From: Tropicimonas isoalkanivorans | GTDB lineage: Bacteria; Pseudomonadota; Alphaproteobacteria; Rhodobacterales; Rhodobacteraceae | NCBI RefSeq assembly: GCF_900112335.1 | Contig: NZ_FOLG01000014.1 | Span: 62,001-126,000 of the forward strand | Direction: 5' to 3' | Length of the DNA: 64,000 bases | Shown here: piece after piece, positions 17,791-24,615 of the stretch | Layout: the number at the start of each line of letters is the position of its first letter | Position numbering within the stretch: position 1 is the first letter of the stretch | Translations under genes and position numbers: made by a program | Notes under the pieces: generated by a model | Databases searched by the model: none | Told to the model about the DNA's origin: nothing | Seen by the model: only the letters and a program-made list of their open reading frames with translations

Positions 17791-18420
17791 CTAACGAACC
17801 GGGTCCAGCAGGGCCCGCGACAGGGTGCAGTCCCGGCGGGCATCGGGCGCGCACGCCCGCGGCTCCAGATCCCGCGTCAGGCAGATCCGCGTTTCCATGA
17901 TTCGCCCGGACTGGCATGTGACCGTCACCATGTCGGCGGAAAGCTCCGGGTTCGCCTCCAGCCAGGCCTCCTCCACCACGGCGGCCGGCAGAACCACGCT
18001 CTCGCTCAGCTTCCGCAGGACCGGCGGCGGCGTGACGCTTTCATACGCCCGCCGCGCCAGCGCGTAGTAGTCCGTCGCCTCCAGCCCCGAACACCGCCCG
18101 TGTTTCTTCCACTGGTACCAGGCCAGCCCGGGGGCCCCCATGATGTCGGCCATCGCGGCGGTCTGGCGGCGCGAGGGATTGGCGGCGGCGGAGGCGCAAA
18201 AGCTCGGCCACCCCTCTTCGTACTGCGGCCAAAGCCCGTGCAGCACCCAGCCCAGATCCCGCGCGGGGTCGCACTGCTCTGCCTCGCGCGCGTCGCCCTC
18301 CGTTGCGCAGTAGCTCGGCGTCCACGACAGCGCCATGACGTAGTAGTCGAAGTCCCCCGCCCGCTCCCCGTCGGCCACTGCCGATCCGGTGAGAAGGACC
18401 CAAAGCAAGATCCACCGCAT
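17791..18420 (-). CDS. secreted ribonuclease T2 family protein
   Basis: A 209-residue protein with a signal peptide (MRWILLWVLLTGSAVA, cleavage near residue 16) and both catalytic motifs: CAS I as HGLWPQ (His61) and CAS II as WKKHGRC (His107), with paired cysteines. T2 enzymes cut single-stranded RNA through a 2',3'-cyclic phosphate and act outside the cytosol, here probably in the periplasm for nucleotide scavenging. ATG 18420 is set by the signal peptide; the frame is open further upstream without conserved sequence. Its last 19 codons are duplicated at 16574-16632. Confidence 0.93.
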   Translation of the reverse strand: MRWILLWVLLTGSAVADGERAGDFDYYVMALSWTPSYCATEGDAREAEQCDPARDLGWVLHGLWPQYEEGWPSFCASAAANPSRRQTAAMADIMGAPGLAWYQWKKHGRCSGLEATDYYALARRAYESVTPPPVLRKLSESVVLPAAVVEEAWLEANPELSADMVTVTCQSGRIMETRICLTRDLEPRACAPDARRDCTLSRALLDPVR

Positions 18421-18543
18421 TTTGACTTCCCTTTCCGCTGCCGCGGCCTTATATGCCAAGCAATTCCCGAAAACGAGGAAAAGCGGCCCCGGGGGCTCGC
18501 GGCCGCAGCCCGGCCACGGTAGAATTGTGCGAAGGAGGCAGAC

Positions 18544-19317
18544 ATGAACAAGCCACTGATGGCAAAGGCCACCGCCGTCTGGCTGGTCGACAACACGACG
18601 ATCAGCTTCAAGCAGATCGCCGATTTCTGCGGACTGCACGAACTCGAGGTGCAGGGAATCGCCGATGGCGACGTCGCCGCCGGCGTGAAGGGTTTCGACC
18701 CCATCGCCAACAACCAGCTCGACCAGATCGAGATCGACCGGGCCGAAAAGAACCCGCTCCACAAGATGAAGCTTAAGTTCAACGCCGCCGCCGTGGGCGA
18801 GGAGAAGCGCCGTGGCCCGCGCTACACGCCCCTCAGCAAACGGCAGGACCGGCCGAACTCCATCCTGTGGCTGGTGAAGTTCCACCCCGAACTGTCGGAT
18901 GGCCAAATCTCGAAGCTGGTGGGCACCACCAAGCCGACGATCCAGTCGATCCGGGAGCGTACGCACTGGAACATCGCCAACATGCAGCCGATCGACCCGG
19001 TGGCGCTCGGCCTCTGCAAGCAGTCGGAACTGGACGCCGCCGTCCAGAAGGCGGCCGCGAAAAAGGCCGAGGAAGGCGTTGTGATGAGCGACGACGAGCG
19101 CCGCAAGCTCGTCTCCACGGAGCAGTCGCTGTCCGCCGATCCCGAACCTCGGATCCCCACGGCGATTTCGGGATTGGAGACCTTCACCCTCTCGGACCCG
19201 CGTGGCGACGAGGAAGAGGAGAGCAACGAGCCCATCCTCGATGCCGACAGCTTCTTCAACCTCCCCGACACCTCGGATGACGAGGACGACGACGAGGACA
19301 CGGACCGGAAGGACTGA
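18544..19317 (+). CDS. trcR: TrcR-type cell-cycle transcriptional regulator (DUF1013)
   Basis: A 257-residue protein. The conserved N-terminal part (about 1-165) contains TAVWLVDNTTISFKQIADFCGLHELEVQGIADG and KFHPELSDGQISKLVGTTKPTIQSIRERTHW, two helix-turn-helix-like segments typical of the DUF1013/TrcR family of alphaproteobacteria. It is followed by a basic/acidic linker and a strongly acidic tail (about 225-257) rich in Asp and Glu. The family is annotated as cell-cycle regulators in Caulobacter relatives. A strong AAGGAGG site precedes ATG 18544. Single-gene unit, divergent from RNase T2. Confidence 0.9.
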   Translation: MNKPLMAKATAVWLVDNTTISFKQIADFCGLHELEVQGIADGDVAAGVKGFDPIANNQLDQIEIDRAEKNPLHKMKLKFNAAAVGEEKRRGPRYTPLSKRQDRPNSILWLVKFHPELSDGQISKLVGTTKPTIQSIRERTHWNIANMQPIDPVALGLCKQSELDAAVQKAAAKKAEEGVVMSDDERRKLVSTEQSLSADPEPRIPTAISGLETFTLSDPRGDEEEESNEPILDADSFFNLPDTSDDEDDDEDTDRKD

Positions 19318-21074: not shown

Positions 21075-22544
21075 ATGTTTCACAGACTTCTCCCCGCCGT
21101 CGCGTTTGCGGTCGCGGCGTCCGGCGCCTTTGCCGCGCGGGACGACATCACCATTGGCATGGGATTGGAACCGCCCAATCTCGATCCCACGGCCGGAGCC
21201 GCGGCAGCGATCGACGAGGTGGTCTATGCGAACATCTTCGAGGGCCTGACCCGGTTCGCGCACGATGGCTCCATCGTGCCGGGGCTGGCGGAAAGCTGGG
21301 ACGTCTCCGAGGACGGCACCGTCTACACCTTCCACCTCCATGACGGCGTCACCTTCCACGACGGCTCCACCATGGATGGGGAGGACGTGAAGTTCAGCCT
21401 CGACCGCGCCCGCGCCGAGGACAGCACCAACGCGCAGAAGGCGCTCTTCACCGGCATCGACTCGGTGGAGGTGCCGGACCCCCTGACCGTCGTGGTGACG
21501 CTCTCCGGTCCCGACGGCGCGTTTCCGTTCAAGATGGCCTGGGGGGACGCGGTGATCCTGGCCCCCGAAACGGCCGGCGAGGCCGCCACCAATCCTGTCG
21601 GCACCGGCCCCTTCAAGTTCTCGGACTGGGTGCAGGGCGACCGGGTGGAGATCGTCCGCAACGGCGCCTACTGGGGCGAGGCCCCGGCGCTGGCGAAGGC
21701 CACCTTCAAGATCATCTCAGATCCCAACGCCGCCTTCGCCGCGATGATGGCGGGCGACGTGGACGCCTTCCCCCGGTTCCCGGCCCCGGAGACGCTGCAG
21801 CAGTTTCAGGCCAACCCGATGTTCTCCGTCATCGTCGGCTCCACAGAAGGGGAGACGATCCTGGCGATGAACAACAAGCAACCGCCGCTCGACGACAAAC
21901 GGGTGCGCGAGGCGATTGCCCATGCGATCGACCGGCAGGCGCTCATCGACGGCGCGATGCAGGGCTATGGCACGCCCATCGGCAGCCACTTCCCGCCGCA
22001 CAGCCCGGACTACGTGGACCTGACGGGTCAGTCGGCGTTCGATCCGGAGGCGTCGAAGGCGCTCCTTGAGGAGGCCGGTCAGACGGACCTGAAACTCCGC
22101 CTCGCCCTGCCGCCCCCCGACTACGCCCGTCGTGGCGGTGAGGTGATCGCTGCGCAGCTTCGCGACGTGGGCATCGACACCGAGATCACGAACCTCGAAT
22201 GGGCCCAGTGGCTGGAGCAGGTGTTCAAGGGCAAGGATTTCGACCTGACCATCGTCAGCCACACCGAGCCTGCGGACATCAACATCTACGCCCGACCGGA
22301 TTACTACTTCCAGTACGACAACCCGGACTTCCAGGCGCTGATGGAGGAGCTCAACACGACCACCGACGAGGCGAAGCGGAGCGAACTGCTGAAGTCCGCG
22401 CAACAGATGATCGCGGACGACTACGTCAACGCGTTCCTCTTCCAGCTTCCCAAGACCGGGGTCGCCAACGCGAAGATCGAGGGCCTTTGGGAGAACGCGC
22501 CCACCCAGGCCAACGACCTGACCGGCGTGCACTGGACGGACTGA
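21075..22544 (+). CDS. family 5 ABC transporter substrate-binding protein (peptide/nickel type)
   Basis: A 489-residue secreted binding protein with a signal peptide (LLPAVAFAVAASGAFA), then ITIGMGLEPPNLDPTAGAAAAIDEVVYANIFEGL, LAESWDVSEDGTVYTFHLHDGVTFHDG and NKQPPLDDKRVREAIAHAID, all hallmarks of the DppA/OppA family. These capture peptides, metal chelates or other solutes in the periplasm. No permease or ATPase gene is next to it, so it is an orphan in this window and its partner transporter lies elsewhere. An AGGGAG site precedes ATG 21075. Confidence 0.92.
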   Translation: MFHRLLPAVAFAVAASGAFAARDDITIGMGLEPPNLDPTAGAAAAIDEVVYANIFEGLTRFAHDGSIVPGLAESWDVSEDGTVYTFHLHDGVTFHDGSTMDGEDVKFSLDRARAEDSTNAQKALFTGIDSVEVPDPLTVVVTLSGPDGAFPFKMAWGDAVILAPETAGEAATNPVGTGPFKFSDWVQGDRVEIVRNGAYWGEAPALAKATFKIISDPNAAFAAMMAGDVDAFPRFPAPETLQQFQANPMFSVIVGSTEGETILAMNNKQPPLDDKRVREAIAHAIDRQALIDGAMQGYGTPIGSHFPPHSPDYVDLTGQSAFDPEASKALLEEAGQTDLKLRLALPPPDYARRGGEVIAAQLRDVGIDTEITNLEWAQWLEQVFKGKDFDLTIVSHTEPADINIYARPDYYFQYDNPDFQALMEELNTTTDEAKRSELLKSAQQMIADDYVNAFLFQLPKTGVANAKIEGLWENAPTQANDLTGVHWTD

Positions 22545-22622
22545 GGCCGTCCCGCACCGGCAGCCGGGAGGCCGGTCTGCCGGTGCATGACGCAACGTTC
22601 CCACGGCAGGTTAGCCAAGGCA

Positions 22623-22672
22623 TGTTGCAAGTTCTTGCAGGATGTTGCAGAGATATGCTGCATTCTGCAGGA
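22623..22672 (+). promoter_or_regulatory. five 10-bp-phased TTGCA-type repeats before the DeoR gene
   Basis: Five consecutive 10-bp units carry TTGCA at 22625, 22635 and 22645, a diverged ATGCT at 22655 and CTGCA at 22665. The array ends 7 bp before the DeoR ATG and includes its AGGA ribosome binding site. A spacing of one helical turn puts all units on one DNA face, which suits cooperative binding by the adjacent DeoR-family protein and autoregulation of the DeoR-MFS operon. Confidence 0.65.
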
Positions 22673-22679
22673 CGCTCAC

Positions 22680-23447
22680 ATGCCATCTGATCCCGTTCTG
22701 AATTCGCCCGAAGGGCGCCAATCCATCCTCCGTGCCCGGGCCGCTGCGGGCGCGCCCCTTCCTATGGCGGCGCTGGCCGAAGAATTCGGCGTTTCGGTCG
22801 ACACGATTCGGCGCGACCTGCTGGCGTTGGAGGCCGAAGGCGCCATCCAACGGGTGCGCGGCGGTGCCTTGCCAGTGATGCAACCGGTGGAGCCTCTGGT
22901 AACGCGGATGCGGACGAGCGACGCGGCCGCCCACTGTATTGCATCAAGGGCGCTGGATCTGATCGAGGACGGGATGGTGGTAATGCTCGATGGCGGCACC
23001 ACGATCGCCCGCCTCGCCGCGAAGTTGCCCCCGCTGCCGCACGCGCTCATCATCACGCCGGCCCCGGCGGTGGCGGTTGCAACGCTGGCGGCCGGTATCG
23101 AGACGGTCCTCATCGGTGGGCAGATGTCGGCCCTGGGCGGAATGGCCGTTGGCCAGCGCGCGTGCGAGGCGGTGTCGGCCACGGCGGCCGACCTCTGCCT
23201 GTTGGGTGCATGTGGCTTGGAGCCCACCTTCGGGCTATCGGCCGACCGTCTTGACGAGGCGGCGGTAAAGGCCGCCATGGGGGCCGCCAGCAGCCGGACG
23301 GCGGTGCTGACCGATCGCAGCAAGCTTGGGCGGCGCGCGCGGCACCGGGTTGTGCCCTGCGCCAAGCTGGACGTGCTTGTCACGGATGCCTCATCGGAGG
23401 AGACCGCTGCTTTCCACGAGGTTGGACTGGAGATTCGTTGTGCGTGA
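22680..23447 (+). CDS. DeoR-family transcriptional regulator
   Basis: A 255-residue protein. The N-terminal DeoR helix-turn-helix (about 11-65) includes LAEEFGVSVDTIRRDLLALEAEGAIQRVRGGA; the C-terminal DeoRC sugar-phosphate-sensing domain has the DGGTT motif (MLDGGTTIARLAAKLP), and ends ARHRVVPCAKLDVLVTD. Such proteins are usually repressors released by phosphorylated sugars. ATG 22680 is preferred over an in-frame ATG at 22587, because the latter would read through the phased repeats. The stop overlaps the MFS start by 8 bp. Confidence 0.9.
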   Translation: MPSDPVLNSPEGRQSILRARAAAGAPLPMAALAEEFGVSVDTIRRDLLALEAEGAIQRVRGGALPVMQPVEPLVTRMRTSDAAAHCIASRALDLIEDGMVVMLDGGTTIARLAAKLPPLPHALIITPAPAVAVATLAAGIETVLIGGQMSALGGMAVGQRACEAVSATAADLCLLGACGLEPTFGLSADRLDEAAVKAAMGAASSRTAVLTDRSKLGRRARHRVVPCAKLDVLVTDASSEETAAFHEVGLEIRCA

Positions 23448-24615
23448 CATCAGAACCCCCCGGCGCGCCGTTTCGGCCGCCTTTGCCCTGAACGGGATGC
23501 TGCTCGGCACCTGGGCCTCCCGAATCCCCACGGTCATGGAGAACCACGGGTTGAGCGAGGGGCGCTTCGGCCTGCTTCTGCTCGTGATGGGGATCGGCGC
23601 GCTGATCTCCTTCCCGATTTCCGGCCGGATGGCGGACCGGTACGGCGCGGTGAAGCTGACGCATGTGATCGGATGGGCGTATCTGCTGTCCGTCGTGATG
23701 CTCGGGCTGGCACCCGGGCCGCTCTGGCTCTCCGGTGCGATGCTGTTCTTTGGCATGTGTCACGGGTCGATGGATGTCACCATGAACAGCTGGGCGACGG
23801 AGGTGGAGAAGTATCTGGGCCGTTCCGTCATGTCGTCGTTTCATGCCATGTGGAGCCTCGGCGCCGGGCTCGGTGCCGCCTCCGGCGCAGCGGCGAGCTG
23901 GGCAGGGCTGTCCGTTGCCGAGCATTTCGTGCTGGCAGCCATCGTTTTCGGCGCGGTGCTGCAATGGTTCGCGCATGTGCCCTGGACGTCCGAGACGCAG
24001 CCCCACAACCCCGACGCGTCGGCCTTTGCCCTGCCACGCGGGGCGCTGGTGCTGGTGGGCCTCATGGCGCTCAGTTCCGGCGCGGGGGAGGGGGCCGTGG
24101 CGGACTGGAGCGCCGTCTTCCTCTCCGGCGAGCTGGGCGTGACGGAGGCACGCGCGGCCCTCGGGCTGACCGTCTTTTCCGTGGTCATGGTGGGGATGCG
24201 CCTGGTCATCGACCGGATCGTGACCCGCATCGGCCCCGTGACCGTCGCCCGCATCAGCGGGCTGACGGCGGCGGTCGGGCTTGGGCTGGTCGTCCTGTCC
24301 GGCTGGCTGCCCGTGGCGCTTCTGGGCTTCGCCCTGATGGGTGTGGGGTATGCCGCCATCTATCCTCTGGCATTCAGCCGGGCCGCCCGTGATCCGGTGG
24401 TTCCTCCCGGCCAGGCCATCGCGAGCGTCGCCACGCTGGGCTACAGCGCACTGCTGCTCTCCCCGCCGGCCATCGGACTGATTGCCGAAATCGCGTCGCT
24501 TCGTGTCGCGTTCGCCCTGCTCGCGCTGCTCGCCATCATGATCTCCGTCCTCGCCGGCGTGTTCGGCCAGGGGCGGTCCGTGCCGCTGGCCCGCGGCGCA
24601 ACCTCTGCCGAGTGA
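23440..24615 (+). CDS. MFS transporter (YbjJ-like)
   Basis: A 391-residue major facilitator protein with 12 predicted membrane segments. The N-terminal RRAVSAAFALNGMLLGTWASRIP and the loop-2 motif GRMADRYGAVKLTH, plus CHGSMDVTMNSWATEVE in helix 4, resemble E. coli YbjJ and FucP-like sugar or drug carriers. GTG 23440 overlaps the DeoR gene and has GGAG 7 nt upstream. Being coupled to a sugar-phosphate-type repressor suggests a carbohydrate-related substrate, but direction and substrate are not established. Confidence 0.88.
   Translation: MRDIRTPRRAVSAAFALNGMLLGTWASRIPTVMENHGLSEGRFGLLLLVMGIGALISFPISGRMADRYGAVKLTHVIGWAYLLSVVMLGLAPGPLWLSGAMLFFGMCHGSMDVTMNSWATEVEKYLGRSVMSSFHAMWSLGAGLGAASGAAASWAGLSVAEHFVLAAIVFGAVLQWFAHVPWTSETQPHNPDASAFALPRGALVLVGLMALSSGAGEGAVADWSAVFLSGELGVTEARAALGLTVFSVVMVGMRLVIDRIVTRIGPVTVARISGLTAAVGLGLVVLSGWLPVALLGFALMGVGYAAIYPLAFSRAARDPVVPPGQAIASVATLGYSALLLSPPAIGLIAEIASLRVAFALLALLAIMISVLAGVFGQGRSVPLARGATSAE

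Follow-up and report, generated by a model that had tools for sequence, protein, structure and literature searches.

Tandem operators with units spaced 10–11 bp apart are an established feature of the DeoR family of transcriptional regulators. The motifs of the DeoR-family regulator RhaR are direct repeats with a periodicity of 10–11 bp in four lineages, and gel shifts (EMSA) were run on a 38-bp tandem that contains four TCGAAA sites (PMC3870299). In Chloroflexus aurantiacus, RhaR is the regulator of a local operon, and its operator, four short TCGAAA sites within 38 bp, lies before its own regulator gene (PMC3870299). For the DeoR-family AxgR of Caldicellulosiruptor, a tandem-repeat operator was predicted throughout the genus between the regulator and a transporter operon; in the same genus all 12 regulators of the LacI and DeoR families have their sites over promoters or within 5' UTRs, an indication that they are repressors (PMC8579813). 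The SorC-family DeoR and CggR of Bacillus subtilis bind a long (39–45 bp) repeat-bearing operator that is contacted by a tetramer (PMC11229326). Our literature search returned nothing nearer than these RhaR, AxgR and SorC-family tandem-repeat operators. An earlier note on the DNA analyzed here had called a regular array beside a DeoR gene unusual, which is wrong, given the published 10–11-bp tandem operators of the family (PMC3870299).

The array that we describe resembles these systems and is located in a stretch of 64,000 nucleotides from Tropicimonas isoalkanivorans (hereafter the window), where it precedes a DeoR-family gene and a gene of the major facilitator superfamily (MFS). Positions 22623–22672, which hold it, are part of ...ATGTTGCAAGTTCTTGCAGGATGTTGCAGAGATATGCTGCATTCTGCAGGA..., and the features of the locus are as follows:

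22625..22629, + strand: candidate operator unit 1, TTGCA (sequence, motif search, shuffle test)
22635..22639, + strand: candidate operator unit 2, TTGCA (sequence, motif search, shuffle test)
22645..22649, + strand: candidate operator unit 3, TTGCA (sequence, motif search, shuffle test)
22655..22659, + strand: candidate operator unit 4, imperfect, ATGCT (sequence, shuffle test; register kept in orthologues)
22665..22669, + strand: candidate operator unit 5, CTGCA, extending into the Shine-Dalgarno sequence (sequence, shuffle test, orthologues)
22669..22672, + strand: AGGA, probable Shine-Dalgarno sequence of the DeoR gene (inferred from its place 7 bases before the ATG)
22680..23447, + strand: DeoR-family transcriptional regulator, 255 aa, with HTH_DeoR (PF08220) and DeoRC (PF00455) (ORF and domain profiles)
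23440..24615, + strand: MFS transporter (PF07690), GTG start overlapping the stop of the regulator; conserved partner (ORF and domain profile)

In contrast to the RhaR operator of C. aurantiacus, the core here is TGCA and not TCGAAA, the units usually number five and are spaced by exactly 10 bp, and the operon has an MFS transporter but no catabolic enzymes (PMC3870299). AxgR is a different regulator with a different operon, and its operator is a prediction only (PMC8579813), whereas the B. subtilis DeoR and CggR belong to another protein family and recognize palindromes plus direct repeats that form no even 10-bp ladder (PMC11229326). It is well supported by the comparison of sequences that the array is a new, unusually clean candidate for a DeoR-family tandem operator that has a distinct core sequence and is paired with an uncharacterised transporter.

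The regulator carries an N-terminal DeoR-type helix-turn-helix (PF08220, E=2.6e-10, 40.3 bits vs a cut-off of 21) and a C-terminal DeoRC sensor domain (PF00455, E=4.2e-31, 108.5 bits vs a cut-off of 31.8). It scored below every curated cut-off of the named NCBIfam equivalogs (GlpR, AgaR, SrlR, UlaR, DeoR and others), with haloarchaeal GlpR as the best of them at 143 bits against a cut-off of 300. Among solved structures, and apart from an unrelated HTH protein, the regulator profile matched only the effector domain of a deoxyribose operon repressor (7l6l); the MFS protein had no sequence match. The C-terminal loop of this clade, LTxxxKLGRR, presumably differs from the usual DeoR-family form, and a sugar-phosphate as ligand is therefore uncertain. 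Since the GTG at 23440 overlaps the stop of the regulator, the two genes probably form a single operon with coupled translation.

Direct reading of the sequence confirmed what the earlier note had seen, namely TTGCA at 22625, 22635 and 22645 followed by two degenerate units in the same phase, so that all five units share one 10-bp register; an additional TGCA at 22659–22662 falls outside it. The final unit is overlapped by the AGGA that precedes the DeoR-gene ATG at 22680. The pattern TTGCAN5TTGCAN5TTGCA has a single exact match in the window and a single one in the 4.98-Mb genome. When scored as five TGCA units at period 10, the best array reached 19/20, a value equaled by none of 1000 dinucleotide-preserving shuffles, and for the window array all other periods from 7 to 14 gave scores of at most 13.

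We examined the conservation of the array among relatives. In a search of relatives, every one of the nine genomes of the genus had the regulator, as did a single additional genome of a 100-genome sample, and an ortholog scan of 84,980 species genomes identified 23 clear orthologous loci (L024–L046). Their hosts are Tropicimonas, Aliiruegeria, Allosediminivita, Palleronia, Salipiger, Halovulum and other Rhodobacterales, together with the gammaproteobacterial Salinicola and Parendozoicomonas, and the identity of the DeoR protein across these loci goes down to 41%. All 24 regulator loci contain 4–7 TGCA-like units with exact 10-bp spacing upstream of the gene, which is where the earlier note had proposed to look for the repeats; the absence from orthologous loci that would have spoken against its reading was not observed. 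The distances between TGCA pairs, a fair measure because unfitted, showed 36, 33, 21 and 13 pairs at 10, 20, 30 and 40 bp across the 24 loci (shuffle mean ~0.2 each, maximum 2–3), with zero pairs at a distance of 9 or 11. The weakest ladders belong to L032 and L033, whose scores were matched by 3 and 1 of 1000 shuffles, respectively, and the array furthest upstream, in L036 (Parendozoicomonas), begins 118 bp before the gene. In an alignment anchored on the first unit, with anchors thus drawn from the array itself, conservation is limited to the TGCA columns and a few adjacent bases, and no conserved column was found upstream of the array. GC is present in 124 of 126 units, partly by construction, as array ends were extended by requiring GC. 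An A+T-rich stretch (47–60% vs 32–42% upstream) coincides with the array. The MFS gene comes directly after the regulator in 22 of the 23 orthologous loci, and the contig of the 23rd stops there.

These data bear on two other explanations. Slippage can generate short tandem repeats, and the array could be a functionless remnant of it or a product of chance; however, the units share nothing but the TGCA core, their six spacer bases being different, the 10-bp register is conserved across bacterial classes, and the score in the window was never reached by shuffles. These findings speak against such an origin and leave this explanation with almost no probability. The second explanation concerns the start of the regulator. 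The reading frame is open in the window back to an ATG at 22587, and the earlier note had pointed out that a translation start there would make the array a coding part of a longer regulator. Seven orthologues (L029, L034, L037, L038, L039, L043 and L045) carry in-frame stops within or near the array, which rule out a coding explanation; furthermore, protein similarity of the regulators starts near residue 8 counted from the 22680 start, and the period of 10 is no multiple of 3. A coding origin is thus exceedingly improbable.

To what extent the array is confined to this operon was addressed by genome pattern searches that tolerated two mismatches across four units. The deoR-MFS site gave the best array match in each of the nine genomes of the genus, and the other matches are isolated and not common to the genomes. 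Among ten further genomes, the deoR site was recovered as the best array match in eight (positions were compared with the contig ranges of the orthologs), while in the remaining two, G106 and G107, the strict pattern missed the deoR array owing to degenerate units. A search of 149 family genomes with the DNA pattern alone yielded 13 genomes with a match; in five of these the match immediately precedes a DeoR-MFS pair, in one case with a regulator just 37% identical. A ladder of this kind is missing at five other DeoR-family genes in the genome of the window. A wider regulon was rejected, as matches elsewhere in the window genome, the genus and the ten further genomes were all isolated and unshared. 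Because most of the best matches lie at deoR-MFS, the others are isolated and these five DeoR genes are without a comparable ladder, the array appears to be a local operator that travels with its regulator, and the predicted regulon apparently comprises one operon.

The earlier note had taken the array for a probable DeoR operator, and the conservation upstream of orthologues together with the tracking of the DeoR gene supports this. For these reasons an operator for the adjacent DeoR-family protein is by far the best reading, and we consider it very likely that this protein represses its own deoR-MFS operon through the array until it is released by a ligand. It is conceivable that another DNA-binding protein, such as a global regulator or nucleoid protein, occupies the array and that the DeoR protein binds elsewhere, given that a three-unit look-alike adjoins Flp-pilus-like genes in the same genome and several pattern matches in other genomes have no DeoR neighbor. 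We regard this as improbable, since the full ladder stands essentially only before the deoR-MFS pair and accompanies it into another bacterial class, whereas look-alike arrays are not common to different genomes.

In the proposed mechanism of the DeoR operator, every 10-bp unit, with its TGCA core, would be contacted by a single winged-helix domain. The spacing of roughly one helical turn could bring multiple subunits of an oligomer next to each other on the same DNA face, covering the promoter and start region. The bound regulator would repress transcription of deoR-MFS, a putative negative autoregulation, and would be released by a DeoRC-domain ligand, probably the substrate of the MFS transporter or a product thereof. 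Transcriptional auto-repression is the likely mechanism judging from the sequence, and promoter occlusion would fit the position of the array, which lies a short distance ahead of the start codon within the sole A+T-rich stretch. No sigma-70-like promoter was found by consensus at 22500–22800, and across the loci the promoter position was inconsistent, with best-fit hexamers at differing places. The suggestion of the earlier note that the array also controls access to the ribosome-binding and start region is unsupported: the regulator is a DNA-binding protein and does not cover the mRNA, so that ribosome blocking does not follow. Activator annotations exist for some members of the DeoR family, e.g., the L-fucose operon activator model, and the regulator might likewise activate its own operon through the array. 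However, the array is found roughly 10–70 bp ahead of the start codon, often reaching into the Shine-Dalgarno sequence, which is the typical position for a repressor, while activator sites are usually upstream of the promoter (PMC8579813); activation is accordingly rather improbable, somewhat more so than binding by a foreign protein, and auto-repression by the DeoR protein is preferred.

A more speculative and doubtful proposal is that a row of at least five DeoR winged-helix domains, larger than a dimer or tetramer, might read the 4–7-unit ladder. Cooperativity would then be set by how many units are present, and the final unit would serve at the same time as Shine-Dalgarno sequence or start region. 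Our literature search found no such multi-subunit operator logic for the DeoR family. The unit is nearly palindromic, Y-TGCA-R, with weak asymmetry (the first T of TGCA is replaced in 31 of 126 units, the last A in 17 of 126). Given a self-complementary TGCA and near-symmetric flanks, the term direct repeat, i.e., a head-to-tail orientation of the units, can be applied only weakly.

With these results, an uncharacterised DeoR-family regulator gains a precise, conserved candidate motif and a regulon of apparently one operon, so that the ligand of the MFS transporter paired with it can be tested directly. With its 4–7 cleanly spaced units, the ladder would also be a convenient model for the assembly of DeoR-family proteins on tandem sites.

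Several minor observations were made at other loci. The gene for the 37%-identical DeoR-family regulator (L089, about 1501–2309, in G058) has an array whose last unit overlaps the probable start codon (ATGCAC). The three-unit look-alike, GTGCATTCGATTGCAATTTATTGCA, is located at L017 1501–1525 (C27:171053–171077 of the window's own genome), between cpaB-like and cpaC-like genes of a Flp/tad pilus cluster, and is possibly due to chance. At L093 1501–1534 (G044), the ladder TTCAN6TGCAN6TGCAN6TGCA may be another tandem operator; judged by eye, it is flanked by a gene for an HTH/substrate-binding-type regulator and by tungstate-type ABC permease/ATPase-like genes. Within the window, also judged by eye, the ORF at 17791–18966 on the − strand has an RNase T2-like sequence (HGLWPQY), and the ORF at 18544–19317 on the + strand resembles the DUF1013/TrcR cell-cycle regulator.
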